28,497 bases of DNA from a virus. Shown piece by piece: positions 1 to 28,497 of this stretch. Position numbers and translations under genes: made by a program. Each line of letters opens with the position of its first letter. Position 1 is the stretch's first letter. The notes beneath the pieces were generated by a model. It had not been told where the DNA came from. It saw only the letters and a list, made by a program, of their open reading frames with translations, and did no database searches. The stretch is taken from positions 1-28,497 of IMG/VR virus record IMGVR_UViG_3300027721_000057; one strand, given 5' to 3'.

Positions 1-103
1 AGTACAAAAAAAGTACTTAAATATTTTTTAGTCTCGGTATTAATTATTATATTTGATATGTAAACAAATTAAAAAAGGAGGTAAAAATGCAATTTCAAAG
101 AGG
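1..103. repeat. Inverted repeat IR-L, copy 1 (103 bp, perfect)
   Basis: Bases 1-103 equal the reverse complement of 22163-22265 without a mismatch. The repeat carries a palindromic AGTAC-A7-GTACT box (1-17), a TATATTTG promoter-like box (48-55), an AAGGAGGT ribosome binding site (75-82) and the first 17 bases of the gene starting at 87. Identity stops at base 104, inside codon 6. The left edge is cut by the window, so the true repeat may be longer. Confidence 0.97.
48..82 (+). promoter_or_regulatory. Promoter-like box and strong Shine-Dalgarno for the 221-aa gene
   Basis: TATATTTG at 48-55 fits the Bacteroidota -7 consensus TAnnTTTG, with a T-run about 20 bases upstream in place of a clear TTTG box. 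AAGGAGGT at 75-82 lies 4 bases before the ATG at 87. Other genes in the window have A/T-only leaders, so this site stands out. The same signals occur in inverted orientation before the gene at 22179. Confidence 0.55.
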
Positions 104-752
104 CGGAAACACTTTATCCACAATAGGAATAGGCCGATTAACACAGATTAAGTCTTCTCAGATATTTAACGCAAACGAACTTTGTAATAACTTCTCAGAA
201 GAAGAAATGAAAATTATGTTTGATAAAGTACATAATCGAATTTCAGGAATTTCGCTTGATGGAGTTGATATTAATGACCTATCGAACCACGACCAGGTAT
301 ATTTTAATAATCAGCTCGTAAAGGGACTTAAAGCAGCACGTCGAAGAGCAGCAAAAATAGTTGCAAAATCAGAATTTGTTGAAGGAGACGTAATAGAGAT
401 ATTATTAAATGGAACAAAGGAAATAATGAACGTCTCATTTAAAAGCAAAGGCAGACCTCATATTGATAATAAAGGAAGAATAAGAGGATGGAATAACCAA
501 TACAGAATTTCAGCATATCTTAAAAATGGATACCGTAAACTTGAAGGAGAAGAAAAAGAGACCTGGATTAAAGAACAAAAATTAGAAATACTTAAAGGAG
601 ATCAGAAAACATTCGAACAAGAAATAAAATGGCATAAGAACTTATTAGATGGAGAAACAAAAGAGGATAAAATAAGACAGTATACAGAATACTTAGAAAG
701 AGCAGAAGAAAAATTACGTAATAACCTCGAAGAACAGCAGAACTTAAAGTAA
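87..752 (+). CDS. Hypothetical protein sharing promoter and first codons with the 111-aa gene
   Basis: This 221-aa protein of unknown function starts at an ATG placed 4 bases after a full AAGGAGGT. Its first six residues, MQFQRG, are the same as those of the gene starting at 22179 on the minus strand because both starts lie in the inverted repeat. Past the repeat the two still share a loose pattern (a Leu, then an Ile-Gly pair, then a basic residue) within about 18 residues, so the N-terminus may be a functional module. The middle (about 85-150) is basic and may bind nucleic acid; the C-terminal 60 residues are Lys/Glu-rich and likely a coiled coil. It precedes the packaging genes and is followed at once by a terminator, so it is probably its own transcription unit. 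I do not recognise the family. Confidence 0.8.
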   Translation: MQFQRGGNTLSTIGIGRLTQIKSSQIFNANELCNNFSEEEMKIMFDKVHNRISGISLDGVDINDLSNHDQVYFNNQLVKGLKAARRRAAKIVAKSEFVEGDVIEILLNGTKEIMNVSFKSKGRPHIDNKGRIRGWNNQYRISAYLKNGYRKLEGEEKETWIKEQKLEILKGDQKTFEQEIKWHKNLLDGETKEDKIRQYTEYLERAEEKLRNNLEEQQNLK

Positions 753-775
753 TATTACATCATATAAAAGATATA

Positions 776-807
776 AATGAGGAGTTAAAATTAGCTCCTC
801 ATTTTTT
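776..807 (+). terminator. Rho-independent terminator
   Basis: A nine-pair stem AATGAGGAG/CTCCTCATT (776-784 with 795-803) has a 10-base loop, and the 3' arm runs into a T tract (802-807). It closes the 221-aa gene and separates it from the packaging operon. Confidence 0.85.
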
Positions 808-810
808 ATT

Positions 811-828
811 AGTATATATAAATAAAAA
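811..828 (+). promoter_or_regulatory. Recurrent leader motif (GTATATATAAATAAAA)
   Basis: This is one of several copies of a GATATATAAATAAA-like element found before genes in both arms. Here it follows the terminator and precedes the small terminase ATG at 837, where a new promoter for the late operon is expected. It could be a phage-specific promoter or an A-rich translation leader. Confidence 0.4.
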
Positions 829-836
829 TATGTATT

Positions 837-1166
837 ATGCTTAAAGATATGTTAATTAAATATCTCGAGGATCAGGGATTATACCATGAGTCAGATGACA
901 TACTTATTGATGAGTTGGTATTCAATATCGAGATACTTAATAAAGCAAAAAAAGACATTAGAGATAACGACATTAAAATAGATGTCACAAAAAACCCAGA
1001 GAAGGGATCATTTTACCAAAAGAACCCCGCAATTAGTGTATACTCACAAACTCTTAAACAATTAACTATGATATTTAGAATGCTTGCACTCTCCCCATCA
1101 GAAAGGCAAAAACTTAAAATTGCCATACAAGAGGCAAACGACCAATTTGAGGATACATTCAATTAA
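837..1166 (+). CDS. terS: Terminase small subunit (P27-like)
   Basis: This 109-aa protein is the likely DNA-recognition subunit of the packaging motor. An acidic N-terminal half is followed by NPAISVYSQTLKQLTMIF (about 64-81) and a short LSPSERQKL segment (about 86-94). This closely matches the end of P27-type small terminases, where an N-P-A/x-Y-x-Q-x-L-K-x-L helix is followed by L-[GS]-[LM]-[ST]-P-x-x-R. The ATG at 837 is the first in frame after the motif at 811-828. The gene lies upstream of the large terminase with two small genes between. The family call rests on motif recognition only. Confidence 0.82.
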   Translation: MLKDMLIKYLEDQGLYHESDDILIDELVFNIEILNKAKKDIRDNDIKIDVTKNPEKGSFYQKNPAISVYSQTLKQLTMIFRMLALSPSERQKLKIAIQEANDQFEDTFN

Positions 1167-1177
1167 AAATAATAATT

Positions 1178-1402
1178 ATGGAAAACGAAACAATAAGACT
1201 TGAAGAATGGACGATAGTCGATGCACCAATTTATAGAAGAGTTTCAGACATACGCAATAAGATTAATAATATGCTTATCGATAAACTTGTAGAAAAAGGT
1301 GCTGAAAGAGATGACGTACAAATACTCGTAGAAAAAGCTGATAATGGAAGCAGCTGTTGCGAAAGTTATAAGATAACCGTGTTTGTAGAATATAAAGAAT
1401 AA
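1178..1402 (+). CDS. Hypothetical 74-aa protein in the packaging operon
   Basis: This acidic 74-aa protein of unknown function starts 12 bases after the small terminase stop, with an AATAATAATT leader typical of this genome. It has a predicted helical centre (about 20-42) and a C-terminal part ending in a beta-like ITVFVEYKE. A Cys-Cys pair lies near residue 60. No catalytic motif is visible. Its place between the terminase subunits and its tight spacing support a real gene. A longer antisense reading frame over it (1244-1504) lacks context and is rejected. Confidence 0.7.
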   Translation: MENETIRLEEWTIVDAPIYRRVSDIRNKINNMLIDKLVEKGAERDDVQILVEKADNGSSCCESYKITVFVEYKE

Positions 1403-1403
1403 T

Positions 1404-1562
1404 ATGAACAAATACTCGAGAAGAAGTCTTTTATTAAATTCATTCGACCAATTTGACCAGAAGAAGATGTTGTGGATGATAGCTCTTCTTAAAGTTAAAA
1501 ACAAGTACCACCAAGGATTAGGATATTGGTATATTCAGGAGTATGAAGCAAGACTTAATTAG
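1404..1562 (+). CDS. Small hypothetical protein (52 aa) overlapping terL
   Basis: I read an ATG at 1404, one base after the preceding TAA, and an open frame to TAG at 1560-1562. It begins MNKYSRRSLLLNSFDQFDQK and ends in YWYIQEYEARLN. The frame fills the whole gap before the large terminase and overlaps its start by 20 bases, the layout of translationally coupled phage genes. The product is basic and probably helical. The function is unknown. The alternative is a non-coding gap of 140 bases, which would be unusual in this packed operon. Confidence 0.6.
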   Translation: MNKYSRRSLLLNSFDQFDQKKMLWMIALLKVKNKYHQGLGYWYIQEYEARLN

Positions 1563-3231
1563 CATAGACGATTATCTTCGTCGATGTTGGAAATACGTTG
1601 GCGATTACATAGAGGGTGTTGAGGATGGAAGTATAAAGACGAATTATTATATTAAAAAACAGGTAGAGTTATTTAAAAAGGCACTCCATAGAGACGACCT
1701 CGAATTTAAAACGTCTGAAGTTGATAAGGTATTTAATTTTGGATATTTCGTAAACCTCATTCATAATAATAAAGTAGAGAGATTTCATTTATTACCATAT
1801 GAGTGTTTCTTTCTTGCAAGCATATATGGATTTTATTATAAAGGTACTGATAATAGAAAAGTAAGAGAGGCAATTTTATTCATAGGAAAAGGAAATGGCA
1901 AGTCTCCATTAGCAGCATTCCTCGTCACGTATACTTTTTTAGTTGATGGCAAAATAGATCCAGAAGCGCTGTTGCTTGCAAATACAAGACGACAGGCAGG
2001 AATATCTTTAGGATTTGTACGTAAAATGATATTCACGTCTCCGACACTTGATAAAAGATTAGAACCATATAATTATAAAATAAAATTCAGAAATAAAAGA
2101 AAGTCTGGATTTATAGAGATACTCTCGTCAGATATTAAATCGATGGATGGATATGCAGCAAACATAGGCATACTCGACGAGGTGCACGAATATGATAATG
2201 CCGATATTTATAATATGATAAAAGGAGCGTGTCAGAAGAAGCACAACTCTCTTTTATTACTTATAACAACAGCTGGAACAAACATAAAAGGATTTCTTTA
2301 TAATAAATTAAAGTATTATAAAGCTGTGCTTAATGAAGTTATTAAAGATGACTCAGTATTCGCAGCTCTTTATTCATTAGATGATGGAGACGATTATAAT
2401 GATAAGAAGAACTGGTATAAGGCAAATCCTGGATTGGATTACATATTCCCACTCTTCGATTTAGAGAAATTATTTGAGTCTTCGAAATTCTCATTATCTG
2501 AACTTAATAACTTTTTAACGAAAAGACTTAACGAATTTAGAGATGCAGAAACAACATGGATTCCAATAGACCAGTTAAATAAAGTATTTGTTGATAAAAT
2601 AGATGATGACCTCATAGGAGAGGATTGTTATATTGGTGTAGACTTATCTGAGAACAGAGACTTAACATCGATTGTATGTACATTTTATAAAAATAATAAA
2701 TGTTATATTAAACCATTATTCTTTATGCCGAATAATGAGGAGAAGTTTGTTAGAAGTGGAGGTGTTAGTATAATAGACTGGATTAAAGAGGGATTGATAA
2801 TTAAATCAGACCATTCGACGATAGATTATGACCAGATAACAGAAAAAATTGCAGAACTTAATAAATTATACAATATACGATTATTATATTATGACCCAGC
2901 AAATAGTGCAATATTTTTAGATAAATTACTTAATGCTGAAATAGGCATACGTGGAAAATGTAAACCGTTTCAGCAAAAGGCAATTACATTTAATACTCCT
3001 CTTAAATATTTAGAGAAAATTATATACGACGAAAGTATAGTTATTGAGAACCCAGCACTTAAATGGCAATTTGGAAATGCAATACTTTATACTGACGGAA
3101 ATAATAATATAAAGATAATGAAAAATAAGAGTAATGACTCTGTGGATGGGGTCGTTGCACTTGGTATGTCGATAGGAGCTTATTTAGATATTAATAAGGG
3201 ACTTAAATCGATTAAAGAGTTGTATTCTTAA
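1543..3231 (+). CDS. terL: Terminase large subunit (ATPase-nuclease)
   Basis: This 562-aa protein is the motor that drives DNA into the prohead and cuts it. The ATPase domain shows Walker A GKGNGKS (about 115-121), Walker B IGILDEVHE (about 208-216, with acidic D212 and E213) and a coupling-type LLLITTAGT segment (about 238-246). The C-terminal RNase H-fold nuclease has YIGVDLSENRDLT (catalytic-type D367), LLYYDPAN (D451) and a terminal DSVDGVVALGMSIGAY (about 532-547) supplying the last acidic residue. Length and layout fit the HK97-type Terminase_1 family. The start at 1543 overlaps the small upstream gene. The portal follows after 31 bases. Confidence 0.96.
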   Translation: MKQDLISIDDYLRRCWKYVGDYIEGVEDGSIKTNYYIKKQVELFKKALHRDDLEFKTSEVDKVFNFGYFVNLIHNNKVERFHLLPYECFFLASIYGFYYKGTDNRKVREAILFIGKGNGKSPLAAFLVTYTFLVDGKIDPEALLLANTRRQAGISLGFVRKMIFTSPTLDKRLEPYNYKIKFRNKRKSGFIEILSSDIKSMDGYAANIGILDEVHEYDNADIYNMIKGACQKKHNSLLLLITTAGTNIKGFLYNKLKYYKAVLNEVIKDDSVFAALYSLDDGDDYNDKKNWYKANPGLDYIFPLFDLEKLFESSKFSLSELNNFLTKRLNEFRDAETTWIPIDQLNKVFVDKIDDDLIGEDCYIGVDLSENRDLTSIVCTFYKNNKCYIKPLFFMPNNEEKFVRSGGVSIIDWIKEGLIIKSDHSTIDYDQITEKIAELNKLYNIRLLYYDPANSAIFLDKLLNAEIGIRGKCKPFQQKAITFNTPLKYLEKIIYDESIVIENPALKWQFGNAILYTDGNNNIKIMKNKSNDSVDGVVALGMSIGAYLDINKGLKSIKELYS

Positions 3232-3262
3232 TTACGAATAAATATAAAAATAAACATTAGAT

Positions 3263-4534
3263 ATGTTAGAAAATCTTAAAAGGTCTTTTAGCGATATTTT
3301 TGGTCTTCAGACTTTTGACAGAGTGTACTTGGGAAACGATACAGCTTATGAAGAGCAGGTCGTAATTCCGTTGCAATCTGGATTAAAGAAGAATACATTC
3401 CAAAACTCAGACGCAGAAAAGATCGGAACAGTAATGACTTGTATAAAAGTCTTAGGAGATACCATATCGCGCATTCCAGTAAACATATACCAAAATTCAC
3501 AAACTGGAAACATCGTCGATAAAGAGGATTATAGATATGACTTATTACATTTCTCTCCGAATGGTATTATAACCTCACAATCATTCTTCTCAGCTCTCGA
3601 ATATAATCGAAACCTTAGAGGAAACTCTTTCGCTCGAATAGTTAGAAATAGAGAGACTGGTAGAGTTAGATCATTAGAACTTATCCCCTCCAATCTTGTT
3701 GGTGGGTATAAAATGGTGCGCGGACAATTGTATTATATTGTATACAACAAACTCGAAAATGGAAAAACAAAAGAGGAAGTTGTTAATGCAAATGATATGT
3801 TGCACTTTAAAATGATAACCAAAAATGGTATATGGGGTATTAACCCGATAGAGGCACAACGTCTTAATTTATCCACACTTTGGAAGTCGAAAACAACAGT
3901 TGATAACTTTTATGAGAATAACGCATTCTCTCCAAAAGTACTTAAATCACAAATTCCTGATGTACAGTTTCAAGAAGCCTTCGCTGAAGCAATGAGGGAC
4001 TGGAATAAAAATAACGTCGGACCAGCAAACGCAGGAGAAGTTATTAAATTACCTCCATTCACAGAGATTCAGGAGTTAACTCTTGATCCAGTTGATGCAA
4101 AATTCATAGAGAGTCAGAAATTCGATACAGCACAACTCTCAGCATTTTATGGTGTGCCACCTGATATGGTAGGTGTATACGAATATTCGAAATATAATAA
4201 TGTCGAGCAGAAACAACAGGAATTTATTGCAAATACAATAGCTGGAATAACTCGTATGTATAGGCAAGAGTTAGAATTTAAATTACTCACAGCTGAAGAG
4301 AGAAAAACTGGAAAGAGTATAGAGTTTGTCACACAAGCACTTATCGAAACTGATATAGCCACTCGAAGTAATTATTATAAAACTATGCAGGATTTAGGTG
4401 TTATGACCCCAAACCAGATAGCATTACTTGAAGGATTACCAACATTCCCAGAGGGAGATAAACATTATATGAGCTCGCAAACTATGCCGATAGAGGATAG
4501 AGATGCAAATAATAAAAACCCAAACGTGGAATAA
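3263..4534 (+). CDS. Portal protein (HK97-type)
   Basis: This 423-aa protein forms the twelve-subunit ring at the capsid vertex through which DNA passes. Family hallmarks seen are an early VMTCIKVLGDTISRIPVNIY segment (about 57-76), a NRNLRGNSFARIVRN stretch (about 114-128), a DMLHFK motif (about 178-183) and the late AFYGVPPDMVG segment (about 290-300), which is very typical of HK97-family portals. The C-terminus is polar and likely disordered. The order terminase-portal-protease-capsid supports it. The ATG at 3263 follows an A-rich leader with no Shine-Dalgarno sequence. Confidence 0.95.
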   Translation: MLENLKRSFSDIFGLQTFDRVYLGNDTAYEEQVVIPLQSGLKKNTFQNSDAEKIGTVMTCIKVLGDTISRIPVNIYQNSQTGNIVDKEDYRYDLLHFSPNGIITSQSFFSALEYNRNLRGNSFARIVRNRETGRVRSLELIPSNLVGGYKMVRGQLYYIVYNKLENGKTKEEVVNANDMLHFKMITKNGIWGINPIEAQRLNLSTLWKSKTTVDNFYENNAFSPKVLKSQIPDVQFQEAFAEAMRDWNKNNVGPANAGEVIKLPPFTEIQELTLDPVDAKFIESQKFDTAQLSAFYGVPPDMVGVYEYSKYNNVEQKQQEFIANTIAGITRMYRQELEFKLLTAEERKTGKSIEFVTQALIETDIATRSNYYKTMQDLGVMTPNQIALLEGLPTFPEGDKHYMSSQTMPIEDRDANNKNPNVE

Positions 4535-4561
4535 ATAGAATATATGAAAATAAGTTAACTT

Positions 4562-5194
4562 ATGAAAGATTATAATAAAATACAGGAGAGAGTCTATGAT
4601 ATAAAAGACCTCCAATTCAGAGCTGTTGAAGAGAATGACCAGAAAATATTAGAGGGATATGCAGCTCTTTATAATACTCGCTCGAAGTTGTTATTTAATT
4701 CTTTTTATGAAGTCATTGAAGCTGGTGCATTCGATGAACTCCTAAGAAGCGATGAACTCGATGTTGTACTGAACTTTAATCACGACAATTCACTCGTAAT
4801 GGGTCGTACAACAAATGGTACACTCGAACTTCGCTCAGACGAAAAGGGATTATTTTTTAGAGCAGTATTACCAGACACTTCGTATGCATCTGATGTATAC
4901 AAGTTAGTACAACGAGGAGACATATTTCAGAACTCATTCGCATTTATGCCAGCAGCAGATGGGTACAAAATTGAGAAAATCGATGGAACAAAACATGAGC
5001 TCGTCACAATAACAAAAGTCGAAAGACTTAGAGATGTTAGTGCGGTCACATTCCCAGCTTATGCAGAAACAAAAGTCGAGGCTCGAGATGATGACCAAAA
5101 TGTTGTAGAGCAAATAGATGAGAAAAGAGTTGAAGACAATAAGTCTCGTACCGAAATATATAGGTTGAAGACCAAATTATTAAAAATAAAGTAA
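4562..5194 (+). CDS. Prohead maturation protease (HK97-type serine protease)
   Basis: This 210-aa protease cleaves the capsid scaffold domain and itself during head maturation. It has the herpes-assemblin-like fold signatures: EGYAALYN (about 31-38), a catalytic His in NFNHDNS (H74), GLFFRAVLPDTSYA (about 96-109) and the nucleophile in QNSFAFMP (S125). The late motif RLRDVSAVTFPAYAET is also family-typical. The C-terminal 40 residues are charged and probably removed by self-processing. It sits directly between portal and major capsid genes. Confidence 0.95.
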   Translation: MKDYNKIQERVYDIKDLQFRAVEENDQKILEGYAALYNTRSKLLFNSFYEVIEAGAFDELLRSDELDVVLNFNHDNSLVMGRTTNGTLELRSDEKGLFFRAVLPDTSYASDVYKLVQRGDIFQNSFAFMPAADGYKIEKIDGTKHELVTITKVERLRDVSAVTFPAYAETKVEARDDDQNVVEQIDEKRVEDNKSRTEIYRLKTKLLKIK

Positions 5195-5209
5195 AATTAT
5201 ATTAAAACT

Positions 5210-6337
5210 ATGAAAATCACCGATTTAAAAGAAAAAAGAAACCAGTATATTGTTAGGATGGAAGAAATTACATCCAATGATACTATGACTGATGAACTTC
5301 GTGCAGAATGGGAAAATCTTGATGCAAAAGTGCAGACTATCGATAAGGACATTAAAATTGCCGAAAGACAAGAGACCCTTAATGTACGTATGGTAGAAAA
5401 GATGAAGCCAGAAACTGAAGATGCAGAAGAAGAAACCAGATCAGTTATTGAAGGACTTCAGGAATTTTTTAGGACTGGAAATGTACCTTCAGAATTTAGA
5501 GGTGCAAACGGAGGATTCCTCCTAAGAACTGACCTTACTCTTACTCAGCTTGGCGCTGATAACAAGAACAAGACAGTTGAGAACTCTCTTTCGATTGCAA
5601 AATCTCCAGCAGAGGGACTTATGGAAGCAATGGGAGTTGTTAAATTCACTGGCTTAACAGGCGATTTAGTATTGCCATCGATGCCACAAGTTTCAGCAGG
5701 ATTCGCATCAGAAGCAGCAGCTGTTTCAGATGCATCAGCAGATCCAGCAAGCTTAAAACTCTCAGCAAGACGTCTTGGAGCTTATAACGTTGTCACGAAA
5801 GAAGTACTTAATAACTCACAACCAGCAATATGGGCAGGTGTTATTCAGGACATTCGCGATGCATGGTACAGAGCTCAGTTAGCAGACCTCTTTGACCAGA
5901 TTCAGACAGACGCAGTTGATGCAAGCACAATCATTGCAGGTAGCACATTAGCATATGCTGACATTGTTAATCTTCAGGCAAATGTGCCTTACGATATGGC
6001 AAGACCAGTATACGTTGCAACTCCAGCAATTGCAGCATTCCTTAAACAAGCAGCAACCGTTGCATCCATTAATGGACCAGTATGGAACGGACCTCTTATG
6101 AACGGAACAGTTGATGGTATACAAGCATACGCAACTTCACTTGCAAATACTGACCACCTCCTTTATTTCGACGCACAGGCAGCTGTAGTTGGAGAATGGG
6201 GCCCAGGCATCGAACTCCTTGTTAACCCTTATACTTACGATTCTGAAGGAAAAATTAAAGTCACGATTAGCGGCTTAACCGACACAGGATTCCGTAATTA
6301 TAGATTCGCATCTTGGATTGCAGACGTTTCGATTTAA
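5210..6337 (+). CDS. Major capsid protein (HK97 fold)
   Basis: This 375-aa protein builds the icosahedral head. Residues 1-75 form a charged coiled-coil delta domain acting as a built-in scaffold, as in HK97. The shell domain begins near FRGANGGFLLRTD (about 96-108), so cleavage by the neighbouring protease probably falls between about residues 75 and 100. The A-domain end (GISGLTD-like segment near VTISGLTDTGFRNYRFASWI) is typical of the family. Codon choice is the most uniform in the window, as expected for the most expressed gene, and a strong terminator follows. Maturation by cross-linking cannot be judged from sequence alone. Confidence 0.95.
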   Translation: MKITDLKEKRNQYIVRMEEITSNDTMTDELRAEWENLDAKVQTIDKDIKIAERQETLNVRMVEKMKPETEDAEEETRSVIEGLQEFFRTGNVPSEFRGANGGFLLRTDLTLTQLGADNKNKTVENSLSIAKSPAEGLMEAMGVVKFTGLTGDLVLPSMPQVSAGFASEAAAVSDASADPASLKLSARRLGAYNVVTKEVLNNSQPAIWAGVIQDIRDAWYRAQLADLFDQIQTDAVDASTIIAGSTLAYADIVNLQANVPYDMARPVYVATPAIAAFLKQAATVASINGPVWNGPLMNGTVDGIQAYATSLANTDHLLYFDAQAAVVGEWGPGIELLVNPYTYDSEGKIKVTISGLTDTGFRNYRFASWIADVSI

Positions 6338-6364
6338 TTTAATTAATCGAATTTAAATAAAAAG

Positions 6365-6396
6365 AAGGAGGTGGATCTTATCCTCCTCCTTTTTTT
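6365..6396 (+). terminator. Rho-independent terminator after the capsid gene
   Basis: Bases 6365-6376 pair with 6380-6391 (AAGGAGG/CCTCCTT outer, one T-T mismatch, GGAT/ATCC inner) around a three-base loop. A seven-T run (6390-6396) follows. It lies 28 bases after the capsid stop and splits head genes from the connector and tail genes. Confidence 0.9.
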
Positions 6397-6417
6397 AAAT
6401 TAAAAAAAGAGAAAATT

Positions 6418-6960
6418 ATGTCTTTAGCAGTAAAAACAATAACGTCTTGGCCTGTTTCTCTTTATGAAGCAAAGCGACACCTAAGGGTAGAAGAGGACTT
6501 CACTGATGATGACGATTATATCCAGAATTTAATTTATGCAGCAACACAAATTGCTGAAAATTACATAGGAAAAGATATTGCTGAGACATCGAATGTACAA
6601 AGATTATTCGATTTTTGTGGACAATACTTAAATATTCCAAAAGGAAACTTCATAGAATTCACTCAGGGAATAATTGAGGATTCATCGACATTAGTTAGTG
6701 CAATAGATACTCAGATATTCAATAATTATGCTTATATTAAATTAAACTCATCAGTCTCGACTGGAGAATTCACACCATTCACAATATATTATAAAACAGG
6801 ATATGCAGAATTAAATGTGCCTGAGTCAATAAAACAAGCAGTATTGATAAAAATTGCAGATTTGTATGATGTCGATAGGCAGAGTGCAAATATATCTTCA
6901 CTTAGGGAGACAAAAGCATTTGAAAACCTCCTTAACGCATACCGAAAAGTATTTTTTTAA
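6418..6960 (+). CDS. Head-tail connector (gp6-like)
   Basis: This 180-aa protein is the likely adaptor ring under the portal. It opens with a WPVSLYEAKRHLRVEED segment (about 11-27) followed by acidic residues and an IQNLIYAATQIAENYIGKDI helix, the classic pattern of gp6-like connectors in which a helix pair with conserved L-x-x-A-K-x-[HQ]-L-R begins the fold. The late part VPESIKQAVLIKIADLYDVD is the matching C-terminal helix. It follows the capsid gene as in other HK97-like siphophages. The next gene starts two bases after its stop. Confidence 0.88.
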   Translation: MSLAVKTITSWPVSLYEAKRHLRVEEDFTDDDDYIQNLIYAATQIAENYIGKDIAETSNVQRLFDFCGQYLNIPKGNFIEFTQGIIEDSSTLVSAIDTQIFNNYAYIKLNSSVSTGEFTPFTIYYKTGYAELNVPESIKQAVLIKIADLYDVDRQSANISSLRETKAFENLLNAYRKVFF

Positions 6961-6961
6961 A

Positions 6962-16000: not shown

Positions 16001-16005
16001 TAATT

Positions 16006-21818: not shown

Positions 21819-21843
21819 TCGATTTATGGAATTAATTATTACC

Positions 21844-22179
21844 TTATAATTCCATCTCAGTAAGCCATTCCCCTCCGGATCCTTTCTGTATCCATTTCCA
21901 AAGTACAATGCCGCAAGGGTCTTCCAATCTGTCTTCGTAATAACCATAAGAACTTATATAAAGTCCATCATCTTCGATTATATCGATAATCGGAAAGGAT
22001 AAGTCCATTAACGGGAATGCTGTCTTCCAATAAGGGTCTTCTCTTCCCTCGTCAAGTGCGTCCCATATTTCCAAGGCGACAGGATATTTAATTCGTAAAG
22101 ACAGTATTTTATCCTTTAAGGCTCTTTCCTTTCCAATATCCAAGGCTTTTAAAGGGTCCAGTCCTCTTTGAAATTGCAT
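21844..22179 (-). CDS. Hypothetical protein with duplicated promoter and start
   Basis: This 111-aa protein starts in the inverted repeat, so its promoter, ribosome binding site and first residues MQFQRG match those of the gene at 87. It continues LDPLKALDIGKERALKDKIL, then an acidic, aromatic middle with EGREDPYWKTAFPLMD and a C-terminal WKWIQKGSGGEWLTEMEL. The motif F-x-R-G-x-D-P-x-x-A-L-x-I-G looks like a short conserved N-terminal element. Codon use is richer in G/C than in arm A. It faces the late operon and ends before the convergent hairpin. No function can be assigned. Confidence 0.75.
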   Translation of the reverse strand: MQFQRGLDPLKALDIGKERALKDKILSLRIKYPVALEIWDALDEGREDPYWKTAFPLMDLSFPIIDIIEDDGLYISSYGYYEDRLEDPCGIVLWKWIQKGSGGEWLTEMEL

Positions 22180-22265
22180 TTTTACCTCCTTTTTTAATTT
22201 GTTTACATATCAAATATAATAATTAATACCGAGACTAAAAAATATTTAAGTACTTTTTTTGTACT
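22163..22265. repeat. Inverted repeat IR-L, copy 2 (103 bp, perfect)
   Basis: Reverse complement of 1-103 without a mismatch. On the minus strand it supplies the TATATTTG box (22211-22218), AAGGAGGT (22184-22191) and start codon (22177-22179) of the 111-aa gene. It is the left edge of the proposed long repeat block 22163-23260. Confidence 0.97.
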
Positions 22266-22291
22266 TTTTAACATTTTTTAACATTTAATAT
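22266..22291. repeat. Paired TGTTAA boxes beside the inverted repeat
   Basis: On the minus strand this reads TGTTAAAAAATGTTAAAAA (TTAACA at 22268-22273 and 22278-22283, 10 bases apart). The spacing and core match the four-box array at 25961-25996, suggesting one DNA-binding protein for both. Confidence 0.5.
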
Positions 22292-22305
22292 AATATCTCT
22301 TATAC

Positions 22306-22321
22306 ACGTACGCGCGCACGT
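22306..22321. other. GC-rich imperfect palindrome in an AT-rich gap
   Basis: ACGTACGCGCGCACGT pairs at seven of eight positions around its centre. It lies in the 286-base gap (22180-22465) between divergent genes and is unlike the surrounding sequence. Operator or origin element is possible; no direct evidence. Confidence 0.4.
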
Positions 22322-22395
22322 ATACCCTCAGGCACTCCTTATTTACAATGAGTATAAATAAGCAATTTTATCCAAAATAGTCTCCTAAATATTTT

Positions 22396-22423
22396 TTTGT
22401 TTCGTTTTTTATAGTTATATTTA
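22396..22423 (+). promoter_or_regulatory. Putative Bacteroidota-type promoter of the 97-aa gene
   Basis: TTTG at 22396-22399 and TATATTTA at 22416-22423 resemble the TTTG / TAnnTTTG pair, with a 16-base gap that is slightly short. The ATG follows 42 bases later at 22466. Confidence 0.4.
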
Positions 22424-22465
22424 CTCTACAATTAACAATCGTTCTTTAACTTAATACAAATTAAA

Positions 22466-22759
22466 ATGAGTACAACAAAAAAGATTATCGCATTAGGCAC
22501 TGGAATCCAGAAGCTTAAAAAATCTGAAACTGAATTTAACCTTCAGATTTTACGTACAAATCGCAGGTACCGCAAAGCCTGTACCTCTCTTTACCCCGAA
22601 CTTAAAGGGTATAAGATATACCTCGACCCCTCCACTGGAGTAGAGATACCAGAAAGTATTCCATCAGTCGAAGTAGAAATTGACCTCGAAGCAGCAAACG
22701 AGGAGTACCAAAGAATCCTTGCAATAAAAGAGGCAAAACCAATTAAAATTAAAAAGTAG
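22466..22759 (+). CDS. Hypothetical 97-aa protein inside the repeat block
   Basis: This basic protein begins MSTTKKIIALGTGIQKLKKS and contains a Tyr/Arg-rich TNRRYRKACTSLYPELKGYK stretch (about 31-50), then an acidic IPSVEVEIDLEAANEEYQ helix and a Lys-rich end (IKEAKPIKIKK). No known motif is seen. Its own promoter and a hairpin right after the stop suggest a single-gene unit. Because it sits between the two inverted-repeat edges it may be present twice in the true genome. A small DNA- or RNA-binding regulator would fit its charge, but this is inference. Confidence 0.7.
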   Translation: MSTTKKIIALGTGIQKLKKSETEFNLQILRTNRRYRKACTSLYPELKGYKIYLDPSTGVEIPESIPSVEVEIDLEAANEEYQRILAIKEAKPIKIKK

Positions 22760-22768
22760 TACAAACAA

Positions 22769-22805
22769 CACAACAGCAGGAGTCCAAAAGTCTCCCACTG
22801 TTGTG
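22769..22805 (+). terminator. Hairpin after the 97-aa gene
   Basis: CACAACAG (22769-22776) pairs with CTGTTGTG (22798-22805), and inner GGAG (22779-22782) with CTCC (22792-22795), across symmetric CA internal loops. It starts 10 bases after the stop of the 97-aa gene. There is no T run, so it may be an RNA-stabilising stem rather than an intrinsic terminator. Confidence 0.5.
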
Positions 22806-23026
22806 AGTGCAGTATAGTATACTAAAGGTGCTCTTAAATTATATACGTAGAGGCTCCTTAGGAGACGTATAGAGTACTTTTATAATATAGTCAATAGTTA
22901 TTATAGCTCATCATTATAGTCTCTTATACATTAATAGAGTAATTTGTATACCTGTGGAATCAGTAGAGGAATCCTGAAGTACTCAGGCGTACTCCCTTAT
23001 TATAGTGCAGAGACATACCTGAAAAA

Positions 23027-23046
23027 TCTCGGGTCCCCTCCCGAGA
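23027..23046. other. GC-rich perfect hairpin
   Basis: Seven perfect pairs TCTCGGG/CCCGAGA enclose a six-base TCCCCT loop in the centre of the non-coding region. It is the most stable of the elements there and a good anchor for an RNA fold. Confidence 0.6.
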
Positions 23047-23161
23047 AATGGCGGTGATATAGAGGCGGGGAGTGGGCTATCATTTACAGCACCCCTTTGT
23101 GGGCAGCGTGCCTGAGTATAGGGGAGTGCACAGAGTATACGGGCATAACGGGATGTGCCAG

Positions 23162-23260
23162 TGTACGTTAGGTGTCTCCACTTAAATCTCTGATGTACAT
23201 AGAGACATAGGGTACATAGGTATTATAGTATAATGTATATGGTATATAGGTAGAGGTCCA
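23162..23260. repeat. Inverted repeat IR-R, copy 1 (99 bp, perfect)
   Basis: Identical to the reverse complement of 28399-28497. Identity ends at 23261, giving the right edge of the block 22163-23260. The copy at 28399-28497 runs off the window end, so the repeat is probably longer than seen. Confidence 0.97.
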
Positions 23261-23266
23261 CACAAA

Positions 23267-23292
23267 CCTCGGCAGCCATGAAACTGCCGAGG
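23267..23292. terminator. Perfect 9-bp hairpin at the end of arm B
   Basis: CCTCGGCAG pairs with CTGCCGAGG around CCATGAAA, six bases outside the repeat edge and about 80 bases after the stop of the last minus-strand gene. For that operon the T run precedes the stem and only TTTG follows, so termination would be atypical, but position and stability suggest an operon end. Confidence 0.55.
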
Positions 23293-23374
23293 AAAAAAAA
23301 AGTTGAAATGCAATTTTTAATAAATGTATTGAACAACATTCGCATAGATTGGAGTCGTATGCATAGTATATATC

Positions 23375-23866
23375 TTACTTTATATCGAAGAATTTGTATC
23401 CTTTATATGTCGTCTCATTGTCGACATTCTTTCGTATTGTTGCGTTATCAGTACGAAAATAATTAGCTGCATCAGTTAGTCTGCGGAAATATATTTTATC
23501 TCCCTCATCAATACCAATAGCTTTTATAGGATTGGCCTTACCGCTGTTGACTTGTGTCTTATGTATCCATCTTAAATTGTCGATATGATTGTTAGATTTA
23601 TCTCCATCGATATGGCTTATACGATAGTCTCTCTCTGGATAGGGTCTCTTAGGTCCCCATGTTAGCATCACGAGCTGATGCACAAGATGGGTCTTTCTGT
23701 CTCCCTCATTAGAGATATTTACAATTTCATAATCGTATACCTGCTTAAATGTATTAAGCTTTTTAGGCTCCTCGTAATTAGTTGCAATTATATCTCCATC
23801 TTTAGATATGGAATAATTAGGATAACCCGGTATCTTTCTTAGCTCTTTAGTCTCTTTTTGGCTCAT
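23375..23866 (-). CDS. NUMOD4-HNH-NUMOD1 homing-type endonuclease
   Basis: This 163-aa protein has the three parts of free-standing HNH homing nucleases. An N-terminal NUMOD4-like segment reads IPGYPNYSISKDGDIIA (about 12-28). The HNH core has HLVHQLVMLTW (His 60 and 63), ISHIDGDKSNNHIDNLRW (about 83-100, with H85 and the N-N-x-x-x-N-L signature). The C-terminal NUMOD1-like part (about 115-150, with FRRLTDAANYF) is a DNA-binding helix. Such genes are selfish mobile elements that cut alleles lacking them. It overlaps the upstream HNH gene by 20 bases and is the last gene of the early operon. Confidence 0.92.
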   Translation of the reverse strand: MSQKETKELRKIPGYPNYSISKDGDIIATNYEEPKKLNTFKQVYDYEIVNISNEGDRKTHLVHQLVMLTWGPKRPYPERDYRISHIDGDKSNNHIDNLRWIHKTQVNSGKANPIKAIGIDEGDKIYFRRLTDAANYFRTDNATIRKNVDNETTYKGYKFFDIK

Positions 23867-24203
23867 TTTTTGGTATATTTAATGGTTGTACATCCCACTT
23901 ACGATTTAATATGTGCATATCTCTTTCAGAATTAACAGCATCTCTTGTCGACTTTTTATCGTGGCAACTCTTACATAATGGTTGTATATTAGTTATTGTT
24001 AGTCTTAGGTCTGGTCGTATAGCTATGTCAACTTTATGGTCGCATACAGTTGCCACAGTTGTAATACCTTTAGCTGAACAATACTCGCACAATGGCTTTA
24101 GTGAGAGTATATAGTCTCTTAGGAGTCTCCATTCTCTGCTCTGGTAGAACTTCTGCCTTACATCTCTTAATGAGAAATCGTAATTATTTAACTGCGCTGC
24201 CAC
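23847..24203 (-). CDS. HNH endonuclease (phage packaging-type)
   Basis: This 118-aa nuclease has a zinc-binding knuckle LCEYC (C39, C42) and LCKSCH (C77, C80) around the HNH triad VCDHKVDI (H56), TNIQPL (N72) and H81. An N-terminal FYQSREWRLLRDYILS helix is the usual opening of phage HNH proteins of the HK97 gp74 type, which assist terminase cleavage during packaging. Here it lies in the early arm rather than beside the terminase. It overlaps both neighbours by 20 bases, so the three genes are probably co-translated. Confidence 0.92.
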   Translation of the reverse strand: MAAQLNNYDFSLRDVRQKFYQSREWRLLRDYILSLKPLCEYCSAKGITTVATVCDHKVDIAIRPDLRLTITNIQPLCKSCHDKKSTRDAVNSERDMHILNRKWDVQPLNIPKNEPKRD

Positions 24204-24387
24204 GTTTTGTTAGATTAGAGTATAATTTAATAAGTCCCCTATGCCCACCTATGAGAAATACGAATAGTCCGATTATCGAAACCGTTATATACATAAGAGC
24301 ACCGAGTAATAACCCAGAGATAAATGTTAGTAGGAACGATAATACAATATCGATTATCTTTAGGGATTTATTAAAAAAGTCTTTCAT
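24184..24387 (-). CDS. Small membrane protein with two TM segments (possible holin)
   Basis: This 67-aa protein has a short charged start (MKDFFNKSLK), a first hydrophobic segment IIDIVLSFLLTFISGLLLGA, a second, YITVSIIGLFVFLIGG, and a basic tail. Size and layout fit class II holins and also other small phage membrane proteins. The recurrent GATATATA leader is located upstream (24391-24410), so it may begin a sub-operon with the HNH genes. There is no endolysin next to it. I prefer a general membrane protein call with holin as one candidate. Confidence 0.68.
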   Translation of the reverse strand: MKDFFNKSLKIIDIVLSFLLTFISGLLLGALMYITVSIIGLFVFLIGGHRGLIKLYSNLTKRGSAVK

Positions 24388-24390
24388 AAG

Positions 24391-24410
24391 TATATTTATT
24401 TTATATATCT
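24391..24410 (-). promoter_or_regulatory. Recurrent leader motif before the membrane-protein gene
   Basis: On the minus strand this reads AGATATATAAAATAAATATA, preceded by TTTTAA and ending 3 bases before the ATG at 24387. It is an arm-B copy of the element found at 8616-8631 and 9341-9356. Confidence 0.42.
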
Positions 24411-24415
24411 TTAAA

Positions 24416-24544
24416 ATGGCAAATGTTAAAAATTACAAAAAGAAATTCTCCTTTAGGAAATTCGATGAGGTCTTTAACGATAAGAAGATTAGATTAGAGG
24501 CTTACATAGCAAAGAAGACTGCTCAGTCCTCTCAGGATAAGTAA
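24416..24544 (+). CDS. Possible small basic protein (42 aa)
   Basis: An ATG at 24416 opens a frame to TAA at 24542-24544. The product begins MANVKNYKKKFSFRKFDEVF and is strongly basic. It is the only possible plus-strand gene in arm B, divergent from the membrane-protein gene (28 bases apart) and overlapping the end of the 135-aa gene by 56 bases. The amino-acid makeup looks protein-like and the leader TTTAAA is acceptable, but the antisense overlap argues for caution. Confidence 0.35.
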   Translation: MANVKNYKKKFSFRKFDEVFNDKKIRLEAYIAKKTAQSSQDK

Positions 24545-24896
24545 TTGCACATTGTCTCTTTATAGAGTTATATACTTTCGTCTGAGCTGATATACGCTCT
24601 TCGAGAGACTTCATAAATGTAATATACTCTTTCTTATTAACTGCAACAAAGAAACCATTCTTACAGCTGCATAGGCCGTATACGAGATTGTTTGTACGAA
24701 TATAGTGTATACATTTACGTATACGATTGTCATCAGCTTTTATACCAATACTGGATAGGCGTATTTGTATTGACGCTGCTGTTATAGCATATTCTTTACC
24801 TTTCTTAATGGTATTGAATGCGTTAGCAAGTACTTCAGCAACTCTTATCTCTGTTGGAGATAACGGCATTGTATACTCTTCGAAATCTGTTATCAT
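24489..24896 (-). CDS. Winged-helix-like DNA-binding protein (putative)
   Basis: This 135-aa protein has an N-terminal helical region with LSPTEIRVAEVLANAFNTIK (about 12-31), then AASIQIRLSSIGIKADDNRI followed by RKCIHYIRTNN (about 40-70), a helix-turn-helix-like arrangement ending in a wing-like strand NGFFVAVNKKEYITFMKSLE (about 80-99). A C-terminal helix with ERISAQTKVYNSIK follows. This pattern of a DNA-binding head plus a Y-x-x-[FY]-x-x-S-L-x-x-R-I helix recurs in phage early proteins of Bacteroidota as I recall them. The role may be regulation of early or replication genes. The start at 24896 is preceded by a GAGATATATT leader. Confidence 0.6.
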   Translation of the reverse strand: MITDFEEYTMPLSPTEIRVAEVLANAFNTIKKGKEYAITAASIQIRLSSIGIKADDNRIRKCIHYIRTNNLVYGLCSCKNGFFVAVNKKEYITFMKSLEERISAQTKVYNSIKRQCAITYPERTEQSSLLCKPLI

Positions 24897-24910
24897 AATA
24901 TATCTCTTAT

Positions 24911-25105
24911 TTAAAATAACTGTTTACTCTCTTCTTTTAATACAACTCTATCGATTGAGTTATCTTTACTTATCCACTTTATCCAATGACCGTTTCTGCA
25001 ATACATTCCAATATGCTGGCCATCATTAAATTGCTTAATACGAAATACGACTTTATCTACCGTCCTGCATTTAGTACAATAATAATAATCTTTAATCTCT
25101 TTCAT
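24911..25105 (-). CDS. Zinc-ribbon small protein
   Basis: This 64-aa protein contains CTKC (C10, C13) and MYCRNGHWIKW (C36, H40), a likely zinc site, with strands between them (VVFRIKQFN). It overlaps the end of the replication gene by 14 bases and is probably translated with it. Zinc ribbons of this size in phage replication operons often bind nucleic acid or partner proteins. Specific function unknown. Confidence 0.7.
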   Translation of the reverse strand: MKEIKDYYYCTKCRTVDKVVFRIKQFNDGQHIGMYCRNGHWIKWISKDNSIDRVVLKEESKQLF

Positions 25106-25919
25106 AGTTAATACCGTCTTTAATAAAGAAATGTATACCGTTTATATCTTCTTCAGATATTGTTATACCACCCCCATATACGAGTGAGTGACTGTTATTT
25201 GGTTGCTGTGCAACCTGAGAGTTTTTTGAAGCAAAAAATGATTTATCATTTTTTGTTATAAAAGATGTGTTTACCACCTCTACCGTTTCAGGCAAGCCAG
25301 GCCTTTCTTTCTTCTTTACATTCTTGTATGTGTCCAACTGATGTCCACTTGTTGTTATTTTAAGCTGTAATTCATCTATTAACATATTGTCTTTGTTATT
25401 GTTAACGTCATCATTACTGTTGTCCACTATTTCTGGTACTCTATCAGAGACTGTTAACATGTTATCTATTATACTGTTAACAGCTTTCATACTCTCTTTG
25501 GTACCACTCTTAGTTGTTCCTAACTGCTTATGAGAGTGCATACTCGCTTTTACGGTCCTGTTGTCCAACTCTTTGTTGTCCACTTTAGTAATTAAATGAG
25601 TTGTCTGGTACTCGTTCCACTTCGTTATCGATATGAGAGAGAATTTGTTAGTCGATGTAATGTATATCATCTTTAGTTGTTCAAGCTTCTTTATCTTTCT
25701 CCAAAATGTGCTTGGAGGATAGCCTATTTCTTTAGCTCCTTCAAATCTCCCTGTTATTAATGATCCTGGTAATAATCGTATTGATGTACCATTAAAGTGA
25801 AATCTTGTCTCCTTATGAGCTGCATTAAGTAGGCACCACATCCAAGTTTTACATAACTTATCATCAGACCAAACTTCGGATTCAATTATCTTTCGATGTA
25901 ATTTTATCCAACCTTGCAT
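25092..25919 (-). CDS. Replication initiation protein (winged-helix, DnaD/replisome-organiser-like)
   Basis: The N-terminal 115 residues start MQGWIKLHRKIIESEVWSDD, the W-I-K-L-[HY]-R-x-[IL]-x-x-[SW]-x-x-[WF] opening typical of phage replisome organisers, and continue with LLPGSLITGRFEGAKEIGY, STFWRKIKKLEQLKMIYI and a final SITKWNEYQ strand, together a winged helix. The rest (about 120-275) is low-complexity, Asn/Asp/Lys-rich linker with no recognised helicase-loader domain. The coding sequence of this linker carries repeated TGTTAAC and TGTCCA boxes, as initiator genes that contain the origin often do. It follows an array of TGTTAA boxes, which may be an operator or iterons. The protein probably opens the origin and recruits host replication proteins. 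Confidence 0.78.
   Translation of the reverse strand: MQGWIKLHRKIIESEVWSDDKLCKTWMWCLLNAAHKETRFHFNGTSIRLLPGSLITGRFEGAKEIGYPPSTFWRKIKKLEQLKMIYITSTNKFSLISITKWNEYQTTHLITKVDNKELDNRTVKASMHSHKQLGTTKSGTKESMKAVNSIIDNMLTVSDRVPEIVDNSNDDVNNNKDNMLIDELQLKITTSGHQLDTYKNVKKKERPGLPETVEVVNTSFITKNDKSFFASKNSQVAQQPNNSHSLVYGGGITISEEDINGIHFFIKDGINYERD
25331..25583. repeat. Cluster of TGTCCA[AC] and TGTTAAC boxes inside the replication gene
   Basis: TGTCCA[AC] occurs at 25331, 25342, 25421, 25562 and 25577. TGTTAAC occurs at 25400, 25452 and 25475, the last two as TGTTAACA 23 bases apart. They all lie in the low-complexity linker of the initiator gene. This resembles origins located within initiator genes (lambda O). 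The boxes partly encode repeated V/L-D-N peptides, so protein-level repetition is the alternative explanation. Confidence 0.42.
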
Positions 25920-25927
25920 ACAATCTT

Positions 25928-25945
25928 TTTATTTTATATATCTCT
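25928..25945 (-). promoter_or_regulatory. Recurrent leader motif before the replication gene
   Basis: Minus-strand AGAGATATATAAAATAAA lies 8 bases before the ATG at 25919, between the TGTTAA array and the start codon. Confidence 0.42.
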
Positions 25946-25960
25946 ATAATGTACGTGTTT

Positions 25961-25996
25961 TGTTAAATATGTTAAATATTGTTAAAATTATGTTAA
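25961..25996. repeat. Four phased TGTTAA boxes (operator or iterons)
   Basis: TGTTAA starts at 25961, 25970, 25980 and 25991, at 9, 10 and 11 base spacing, about one helical turn. They fill the 73-base gap between the methyltransferase and the replication gene. Two matching boxes occur at 22268-22283. Confidence 0.6.
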
Positions 25997-26568
25997 TTAA
26001 TCCATTTAATAACTGTTTCTCCTGTATACCCTTTCTCCCATACATACCATGCATAACACGCTGCTCCACTACCACACTTATCGAAATCCCCATTTCTTGC
26101 AGGTCGAAATCGTCCACTTGCAACGTATAAGACTTTTGGAGGATGCACTTTATAAAATTCCCTTCGTTTTTTACCTTCAAGAAATTGTATTCTCAATAAG
26201 AATGCGATTTTATTTCCTGTATTAACAATCTCTATTGCTTTATTAATAAATTCATAAGCATATTCATACGGAGGGTTTGTTATAATATCTCCATTCCAGG
26301 TATTTGTACATTTTAAGAAATCAGTTATTTCGTCCTCATATCCTCTCTTTATTAAATCAGTCGAATATACATTATATCCATAACTCTTTAGTACTTCAGA
26401 TATATGGCCCTCTCCACAAGCGGGTTCCCATATATCTTTATTAAAAGTCTCAACTCTGCATAATTCGTGCGACGCTTTTGGAGGTGTTGCGTAATAATCG
26501 TAATCAGCACGTTCCTCTTCAGCGAATGTCGACGAGGATAATAATGTGTATACAACAGATCTCTTCAT
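25993..26568 (-). CDS. DNA adenine (N6) methyltransferase
   Basis: This 191-aa enzyme has the SAM-binding motif WEPACGEGHISEVL (about 47-60), a DYYATPP segment before it (about 24-30), an acidic strand end YSTDL (D71) and the catalytic DIITNPPYEYAYEFI (NPPY at 98-101), the set expected for phage N6-adenine methylases. It may protect phage DNA from host restriction or mark it for another role. Its ATG overlaps the previous stop by one base (TAATG), so it is coupled to the ATP-pyrophosphatase. No target-recognition domain is evident; specificity cannot be read. Confidence 0.88.
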   Translation of the reverse strand: MKRSVVYTLLSSSTFAEEERADYDYYATPPKASHELCRVETFNKDIWEPACGEGHISEVLKSYGYNVYSTDLIKRGYEDEITDFLKCTNTWNGDIITNPPYEYAYEFINKAIEIVNTGNKIAFLLRIQFLEGKKRREFYKVHPPKVLYVASGRFRPARNGDFDKCGSGAACYAWYVWEKGYTGETVIKWIN

Positions 26569-27656
26569 TACGTTAATTTATTAAATGCGTTAGCAAGAGA
26601 AATAAGCATCTTTATCTTATCCCTTGATTCAAAATCATTTAGTGTTATCTTGCTATTTTGTACAATATCTCTCAAAAGAGACTCATCATAATACTCGTCG
26701 AGTACCTCAAGCATATCAGCTCTTTCTACTTTAAGAGCCTTTTTAACGAAATTAAAATCGGTATACTCTTTCATTATCTCTTTAAGATAATATTTACGAT
26801 AATGTCTGTGCAACTCTTTACACGATAAGGTATATTCAAAAAGAGTACGATTGATGTATGGTAGGTATATACGTTGGTCGAGGTACCTGTCGATAAAGTA
26901 TTGGTATTTAGCGTGGTAATAATACCTTTGGTCGTGTATAACCGAGAAGAGCATCATATTCTTTATCTGGTCATCATCAGAGTATTTCCATAACTTATTT
27001 GGTCTAATTATATCCACGTCGTGCTTCGAGATATATTCATTACTATACTCTCCTGCGTCGAGTGTTGCAATCTTCTTCTCGAATGATGGTGCGAATATTG
27101 TATCTGCACCATCTCCAGCAATAATATGCTTATCAGAGTATTTAGCGAGATAATAACTCAGGAGTACGGATCCCTTCTCATAAGGTGCGGGCATTGCGAA
27201 GAGTATATAAAAGAGGTCCTCTTTAAGGTTCTCTTTAGTTATTCTAACGAATTTCATATCCTCATCTTTAAGATGGAGTACATTTTTACCGACATCGTAT
27301 GCGAATTGGTCTTCGGAATAACTCTCGTAAGATAACGTAAGAGTATTATATTTAATATCTAATTCGTTTAATAATATACCTAAGAGTGTGCTATCCATAC
27401 CTCCAGAGAATAATAATGTAATACCTCCTTTAGCATCCTTTAGCCTCGATAATTGGTTCTTTATCTTTCTTTTAATATAATCGAGGTCGACTGTTGCAAT
27501 TGTACGATTATATGCTACTATTGCCTCATCATCCTTTAAGCAATTTCTCCAACTATCTGTTGTGCTATTAATGTGTAAGTCATTAAATCCTTTACCTGAT
27601 GGATAATACCCATAAGTAATTAACTCTTTATACTTGTTTCGAATTTGTTGGTTCAT
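26568..27656 (-). CDS. Asparagine-synthetase-like ATP-pyrophosphatase (no glutaminase domain)
   Basis: The 362-aa protein has the PP-loop ITLLFSGGMDSTLLGILLNE (about 79-98, with SGGMDS at 84-89), a TLSYES strand (about 107-112) and IAGDGADTIFAP (about 179-190), which parallels the [GE]-[DE]-G-[AS]-D-E-x-F motif of asparagine synthetase B. Near 280-300, IYLPYINRTLFEYTLSC and a following RHYRKYYLKEIMKEY match the AsnB C-terminal pattern. The usual N-terminal Cys-starting glutaminase domain is missing; the first 75 residues are different. It should adenylate a carboxylate and transfer an amine or ammonia. In phages such enzymes can join base-modification pathways, peptide or cofactor amidation. 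Substrate unknown. Confidence 0.84.
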   Translation of the reverse strand: MNQQIRNKYKELITYGYYPSGKGFNDLHINSTTDSWRNCLKDDEAIVAYNRTIATVDLDYIKRKIKNQLSRLKDAKGGITLLFSGGMDSTLLGILLNELDIKYNTLTLSYESYSEDQFAYDVGKNVLHLKDEDMKFVRITKENLKEDLFYILFAMPAPYEKGSVLLSYYLAKYSDKHIIAGDGADTIFAPSFEKKIATLDAGEYSNEYISKHDVDIIRPNKLWKYSDDDQIKNMMLFSVIHDQRYYYHAKYQYFIDRYLDQRIYLPYINRTLFEYTLSCKELHRHYRKYYLKEIMKEYTDFNFVKKALKVERADMLEVLDEYYDESLLRDIVQNSKITLNDFESRDKIKMLISLANAFNKLT

Positions 27657-27813
27657 TAACGTATATTTTAAGAATTATACCATATTTCGTTTCAGCTTCA
27701 TACAGCCATCCACGGTTAAATAAGCCATTAAGCTTTTGTTCATATTCTTCTGCTGGGTTTTGTACAGTATCCCGCGAGGAATAATACCTCAAAAAGTAAT
27801 AACGTAATCTCAT
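27628..27813 (-). CDS. Hypothetical 61-aa protein
   Basis: This basic, Tyr/Arg-rich protein starts MRLRYYFLRYYSSRDT and continues NPAEEYEQKLNGLFNRGWLYEAETK. It fills the gap between the kinase (6 bases after it) and the ATP-pyrophosphatase, with a 29-base overlap with the latter. Size and spacing suggest a real gene of the early operon. No domain recognised. Confidence 0.6.
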   Translation of the reverse strand: MRLRYYFLRYYSSRDTVQNPAEEYEQKLNGLFNRGWLYEAETKYGIILKIYVNEPTNSKQV

Positions 27814-27818
27814 AATTT

Positions 27819-28322
27819 CTAATTTTTAAGTTTATAAAAGTATTCATCGAGTACTCGTACAGCAATATCGAATACGCCATCCATATTATGGTGTGCCGTA
27901 TTAATTTTATACTTATCGAGTATTGATTCTTTATAATAATGTTCATATACCTCAAGGTCCCCTTTAACATCTATACGAGGTCCCTTCTCCTCTTTAATAC
28001 GTTTCTCTATCGTATTAATGTCAGCATAAAGATATAACATATATGCCTTCAATTTACGAAATGAGCTCTCCATTAAATCGTAATAAGCCTCTCCAACATT
28101 ACGTTTATAAATGTGGTTATAAGCCTTTAGTCCTACGGGTCCACGTACAATTACGAGGTGCGCGTAATCGTAATGTCTCTTTAGTCTCTCCTGAAGTGTT
28201 GTCTTTCCTGTGCGGTCGACACCTTCAATAATAATTATTCGTCCCTGAGATCTATGGCGAAAGTTATCCATATTAAGATTCTCGTCGAATGGTACTTCAA
28301 ATGAGTGATTGTCTGCATTCAT
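27819..28322 (-). CDS. P-loop nucleotide kinase (thymidylate-kinase-like)
   Basis: This 167-aa protein carries a Walker A IIIIEGVDRTGKTTLQERL (about 29-47, G-x-x-x-x-G-K-T-T), an RGPVG turn near residue 60, a LYLYADINTIEKRIKEEKG helix with lid-like basic residues (about 110-128) and a C-terminal helix. E-G-x-D-x-x-G-K-[ST]-T is the signature of thymidylate and related deoxynucleotide kinases. It is shorter than cellular thymidylate kinases (about 200 aa). The product likely phosphorylates a nucleotide for phage DNA synthesis or a modified base. The first 27 residues are an extension; an internal Met at residue 18 is an alternative start. It is the first gene of the early operon. Confidence 0.85.
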   Translation of the reverse strand: MNADNHSFEVPFDENLNMDNFRHRSQGRIIIIEGVDRTGKTTLQERLKRHYDYAHLVIVRGPVGLKAYNHIYKRNVGEAYYDLMESSFRKLKAYMLYLYADINTIEKRIKEEKGPRIDVKGDLEVYEHYYKESILDKYKINTAHHNMDGVFDIAVRVLDEYFYKLKN

Positions 28323-28350
28323 AATTTTTTTTTAATTAATTTATTTAGTC

Positions 28351-28368
28351 TTTTTATATATATATCTC
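28351..28368 (-). promoter_or_regulatory. Early-operon promoter candidate (GAGATATATATATAAAAA)
   Basis: The minus-strand element GAGATATATATATAAAAA, followed by GACTAAATAAA, resembles the recurrent GATATATAAATAAA motif. It lies between the repeat edge (28399) and the kinase start (28322), where a promoter for the early operon is expected. The 76-base gap holds no reading frame. Confidence 0.42.
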
Positions 28369-28398
28369 CAAAGAGTTTTGCATAATTAAAAATATTTT

Positions 28399-28497
28399 TG
28401 GACCTCTACCTATATACCATATACATTATACTATAATACCTATGTACCCTATGTCTCTATGTACATCAGAGATTTAAGTGGAGACACCTAACGTACA
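28399..28497. repeat. Inverted repeat IR-R, copy 2 (99 bp, perfect)
   Basis: Reverse complement of 23162-23260. It runs to the last base of the window. On the early-operon side it ends 76 bases before the kinase start, so it would place a shared control region upstream of arm B. Confidence 0.97.

Follow-up and report, generated by a model that had tools for sequence, protein, structure and literature searches.

The window, the whole 28,497-nucleotide stretch of DNA analysed here, is best interpreted as nearly all of a circular phage genome of about 29.4 kb, in which a control block is duplicated in inverted orientation around a 5.1-kb early arm and the second copy is full-length (probability roughly 0.7). 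It is very likely that the block, or at least its edges, is present in two copies. Active flipping of the early arm between these copies is proposed more tentatively.

Inverted edges and layout of the window

Bases 1-103 of the window are the perfect reverse complement of 22163-22265, and bases 28399-28497 are that of 23162-23260, as determined by exact string comparison; the matches end at base 104 and at 28398, respectively. No other inverted repeat in the window comes close in length to these 103- and 99-base pairs; second in size is a 50-nt repeat with 74% identity that corresponds to a promoter-like element within the internal block. Chance cannot account for perfect matches of 103 and 99 bases in 28.5 kb. 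The initial annotation had described both ends as perfect inverted copies of the edges of an internal block, and this was reproduced exactly, including the 99-base overlap at the right end; the order and orientation that it gave for the outer copies also hold, as both fit the edges of a single reversed 22163-23260. With the block denoted R, its inverted partner R', and the late and early arms A (22.1 kb) and B (5.1 kb), the contig reads edge of R', A, R, B, edge of R'.

1..103, - strand: left edge of R', with a promoter-like element, leader, ribosome-binding site and the first codons of gene 87-752 (at least 20 bases more in contig L007)
104..22162, + strand: arm A, late genes (PHROGs matches)
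22163..23260, + strand: block R, about 1.1 kb, the sole complete copy of the proposed inverted repeat (both edges recur reversed at the window ends)
23261..28398, - strand: arm B, early genes (PHROGs, Pfam, NCBIfam)
23847..24203, - strand: HNH endonuclease (PHROGs/Pfam match)
28399..28497, - strand: right edge of R' (exact match to 23162-23260)

The outer copies comprise 103 and 99 bases of R', and the remaining 896 bases in its middle lie outside the window; the circle would measure 29,393 bases if a complete reversed block were used to close the contig. The record is classed as linear in IMG/VR. The two ends are not inverted copies of each other, as those of a protein-primed phage would be; each matches the opposite edge of the internal block. 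Additionally, no polymerase was found among the 30 window proteins scanned against PHROGs, with up to about 0.9 kb of the genome lying outside the window.

Gene content of the two arms

Arm A encodes, in order on the + strand, the small and large terminase subunits, portal, protease, capsid, connectors and tail proteins (PHROGs). The large terminase, portal, protease and capsid genes stand in the order of an HK97-type tailed phage (Caudoviricetes). Arm B encodes, on the - strand, two HNH proteins, a DnaD-like helicase loader, a DNA methyltransferase, and asparagine-synthase-like and dNMP-kinase-like proteins. A PHROGs scan of 30 window proteins recognised no serine or tyrosine recombinase. GC skew tracks gene direction in both arms and does not separate the two possible orientations (isomers) of arm B.

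A Prolixibacteraceae MAG and Gaoshiqia sediminis, both Bacteroidota, carry relatives of the terminase, and the contig is probably a nearly complete genome of a tailed phage of Bacteroidota. The phage is represented by metagenome sequence only.

Two further features of the arms were observed. The asparagine-synthase-like protein of this small phage (26568-27656) matches TIGR01536 with an E-value of 3e-9, a match that falls far short of the family cut-off. DVS/DAS/DSS triplets abound in the tail proteins (13910-18384), where a 60-nt unit encoding YVDGSLSLRDTSI recurs.

Block R as a candidate control region

The left edge of R contains a leftward promoter-like element, a leader, a ribosome-binding site and six codons (MQFQRG) of a gene. 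The features in and around the block are as follows.

87..752, + strand: first late gene, 221 aa, MQFQRGGNT..., starting in the repeat edge (positive coding score in its own frame only)
21844..22179, - strand: 111-aa gene, MQFQRGLDP..., read leftward out of R, with its first codons in R (coding score)
22206..22261, - strand: leftward promoter-like element with TATATTTG (identical copy at 5-60 on the + strand)
22373..22422, + strand: diverging rightward copy of the promoter-like element, 74% identical (sequence comparison)
22466..22759, + strand: 97-aa gene inside R (coding score)
22762..23260, no strand: non-coding structured part of R, about 500 nt (no coding frame; folding z -2.5 and -2.9)
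23267..23292, - strand: terminator-like hairpin with a weak T tract, immediately beyond R where the early operon ends (sequence)

The TATATTTG box is presumably a Bacteroidota-type -7 box (TAnnTTTG); matches to the promoter motif are, on their own, near chance level. The 97-aa protein matches no known family in PHROGs, Pfam or NCBIfam, and its predicted fold is of low confidence (pLDDT 61). The region 22762-23260 folds better than its shuffles and has a G+C content somewhat above that of its surroundings; it is possibly a leader or an origin. No Rfam family was matched by this region at gathering score. The hallmarks of a mobile element (a transposase, terminal inverted repeats and target duplications) were not found: R lacks inverted repeats at its termini, and its sole gene is that of the 97-aa protein of no family. 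At base 1, the late operon (gene 87-752) begins from this left edge of the block, which makes the block look like an early/late control region.

The proteins of 87-752 and 21844-22179 are similar at their N-termini over 17 residues (9/17 identical, E-value 4e-4). The repeat boundary falls in codon 6, and a loose similarity of both proteins goes on to residue 17; a recent duplication or gene conversion up to this point would account for the likeness. The N-terminal pattern common to these otherwise unrelated proteins is MQFQRGxxxLxxxxIG, for which no family was found in Pfam, PHROGs or NCBIfam.

Junctions and assembly

The left end of arm A was found in one other IMG/VR contig, L007, which is 7.2 kb long, comes from a separate assembly and is 99.99% identical to window 1-7174. 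It begins 20 bases beyond base 1, and the added stretch carries on as the reverse complement of R (window 22285-22266), such that the left overlap with the block is 123 bases in L007 versus 103 in the window. Because L007 runs further into a reversed R, a one-off chimera does not account for the left junction, and base 1 is no physical end.

One MEGAHIT k-list used at JGI is 23, 43, 63, 83, 103 and 123 (PMC6243002). The left overlaps of 103 and 123 bases equal consecutive values of this list, which is assumed to have applied to the window's own assembly as well. In a noise-free de Bruijn graph of a circle A-R-B-R', three unitigs (A, R and B) were obtained with overhangs of exactly k at any k, and the result was the same for both isomers; a modelled circle with a single R gave no contig end at this place. 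The overlaps equal to k values are thus good evidence of a repeat at the left junction.

Two details depart from this model. The right overhang, at 99 bases, is 4 bases shorter than the left one, and no single k yields both. Moreover, the modelled graph keeps A, R and B apart, while the real contig has them joined once. The A-R-B join may stem from a chance join at low coverage or from later merging of contigs, either of which would leave A, R and B present once apiece, flanked by two overhangs, the form expected if R is used once. The proposal in the initial annotation that the breaks mark an assembler's stop at an unresolved repeat therefore agrees with the left overlaps; it does not extend to the 99 bases on the right by one k, and joining A-R-B across a repeat present twice is not what a plain de Bruijn assembler would usually do.

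Other assembly settings were considered for these details. The default MEGAHIT k-list includes 99 and 119, and k values of 99 and 119 with 4 extra bases on the left are possible, yet the JGI list fits both left ends exactly. An older JGI pipeline used SOAPdenovo with k in steps of 4 followed by merging with minimus2 (PMC5688640). This pipeline is a plausible source of both the 4-base gap and the A-R-B join, but the k values given for it are 101 and 105 rather than 99 and 103.

Duplication of the edges alone would produce the same ends in the modelled graph as a full copy. In such a partial inverted repeat, two stretches, no shorter than 123 and 99 bases and perhaps reaching a few hundred, would enclose other sequence, such as a regulatory gene, in what would still be a circular genome with inverted edges. 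The edges are indeed the portion seen, and shorter repeats would ease the passage of an assembler through A-R-B. This arrangement requires, however, two separate duplicated stretches, each ending inside the block and placed in matching order, and a distinct middle could have extended one of the contig ends past the repeat. A partial repeat is therefore considered unlikely.

An artefact, in which a normal genome with a single block acquired chimeric or fold-back joins at its ends, is very improbable. The contig does join R in a manner that a plain graph would not. Against an artefact stand the recurrence of the left junction in the independently assembled L007 and the position of two different junctions at block boundaries with compatible orientations. 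The left edge also supplies the late operon with the promoter-like element, leader and start codons that it needs.

Relatives and orientation of arm B

The closest complete relative is IMGVR_UViG_3300027719_000039 (L012, G006), a record of 32398 bases classed as linear. Its ends overlap by 156 bases (155/156 identical), indicating a complete circular genome of about 32.2 kb. L012 and the window have a collinear late arm, with 40% identity for the terminase and 45% for the portal, and an HNH homologue diverging from the late operon. L012 differs from the window in having no inverted repeat of at least 30 bases. None of this length was found in the related loci either, L046 and L047 among them. 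As the closest complete relative is without the repeat, the duplication looks like a feature of the window's lineage. L012 does contain an exact 104-base direct repeat (10561-10664 and 19801-19904), located at the 3' ends of two genes.

The edges of the window are consistent with closure into a circle, and the closest complete relative is circular. A linear genome, with termini inside the second copy and contig ends caused by falling coverage near a cos cut in R', has in its favour the linear class of the record and a terminase set (HNH, small and large subunits) that resembles that of cos-type phages, but it is the least probable alternative, since the left end differs between two assemblies by 20 bases, one k step, which leaves base 1 no fixed terminus, since L012 closes to a circle, and since a cut in R' should cut R too.

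In 12 of 13 relatives, the large terminase gene is preceded, at a distance of 0.6-1.8 kb, by an HNH homologue on the same strand, a comparison that includes some weak matches and two records (L021 and L022) that look like one phage. In L012, the HNH gene is in the opposite, divergent orientation to the terminase gene. By coordinate arithmetic, filling in R' places the HNH gene of the drawn contig about 6.7 kb from the terminase gene and on the other strand; with arm B flipped, it is about 3.5 kb upstream of the terminase gene and on the same strand. The usual gene order of the relatives thus appears to match the isomer that is not drawn, which is suggestive rather than proof of flipping. The modelled graph is identical for both isomers, and the drawn orientation of arm B is therefore arbitrary. 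HNH was the only arm-B protein matched in the relatives. Points that count against a circle with two blocks include the absence of the repeat from the closest relative, the opposed orientation of HNH and terminase there, and the outcome of the following IMG/VR searches.

Searches of IMG/VR with the right edge, the 97-aa gene, arm B and the right end of arm A returned no other contig containing R or arm B, and hence none that crosses R'. A blastn search of R in INPHARED also gave no match.

Proposed genome form

The circular or permuted molecule of about 29.4 kb with two inverted blocks put forward in the initial annotation gains support from the left junction in two assemblies, the k-sized overlaps and the gene order of the relatives. 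Its scope is narrower than claimed there, as R' is known from its edges only (123 and 99 bases) and its middle is inferred.

In the two-block form, the molecule would be circular, or would circularise, with arms A and B parted by the inverted R and R'. The block would fire outward, one edge toward an A-side gene (the late operon at R' and the 111-aa gene at R) and the other edge facing B. The middle of R' would have dropped out of the assembly because a 1.1-kb repeat is too long for short reads to place. By recombining homologously, R and R' would flip B (or A), such that the B operon would always start beside the right edge of a copy and the late operon always at a left edge. With identical sequence on both flanks, no operon would be separated from its promoter in either orientation. 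As no recombinase was recognised, the agent would presumably be host or general homologous recombination over 1.1 kb. A conceivable extension, regarded as somewhat less likely than not, is a quadripartite, chloroplast-like phage whose early arm flips freely by general recombination, with both isomers expressed, the copies kept identical by gene conversion and the dose of the control sequence or origin doubled.

If this is correct, the window would represent a phage genome whose early arm can be inverted without harm although no recombinase is dedicated to the task. Such phages would be stored as "linear" records, with an arbitrary arm orientation, because end-repeat tests overlook contigs whose ends match an internal block; screening contig ends against the opposite edges of an internal block would reveal more of them.

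Comparison with known systems

A narrow search of open papers found no description of a phage in which the early/late control region is duplicated in inverted form on either side of the early arm. Inverted repeats with segment inversion are known in eukaryotic systems, namely the yeast 2-micron plasmid and herpesvirus genomes; in the 2-micron plasmid, inversion is carried out by the Flp recombinase and plays a part in amplification. In the C segment of phage P1 and the G segment of phage Mu, genes start at or within the repeats. These segments are flipped by the Cin or Gin recombinase, which switches the host range (PMC12529663). The window is like them in containing a phage segment between inverted repeats that would be able to flip. 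It is unlike them in that no recombinase was recognised in the scanned proteins and that a flip would be silent. Arm B carries early genes, and does not swap alternative tail-fibre genes.

Chloroplast genomes contain two unique regions between inverted repeats and occur as flip-flop isomers, both functional, that short reads cannot distinguish; as a caution, species with repeats of 399-440 bp show a single isomer (PMC7145664). The chloroplast repeats are 10-30 kb long and belong to an organelle, whereas the block in the window is about 1.1 kb, belongs to a phage, and its isomers are proposed. With these differences, the window genome would in kind resemble the flip-flop genomes of chloroplasts more than the invertible segments of P1 and Mu.
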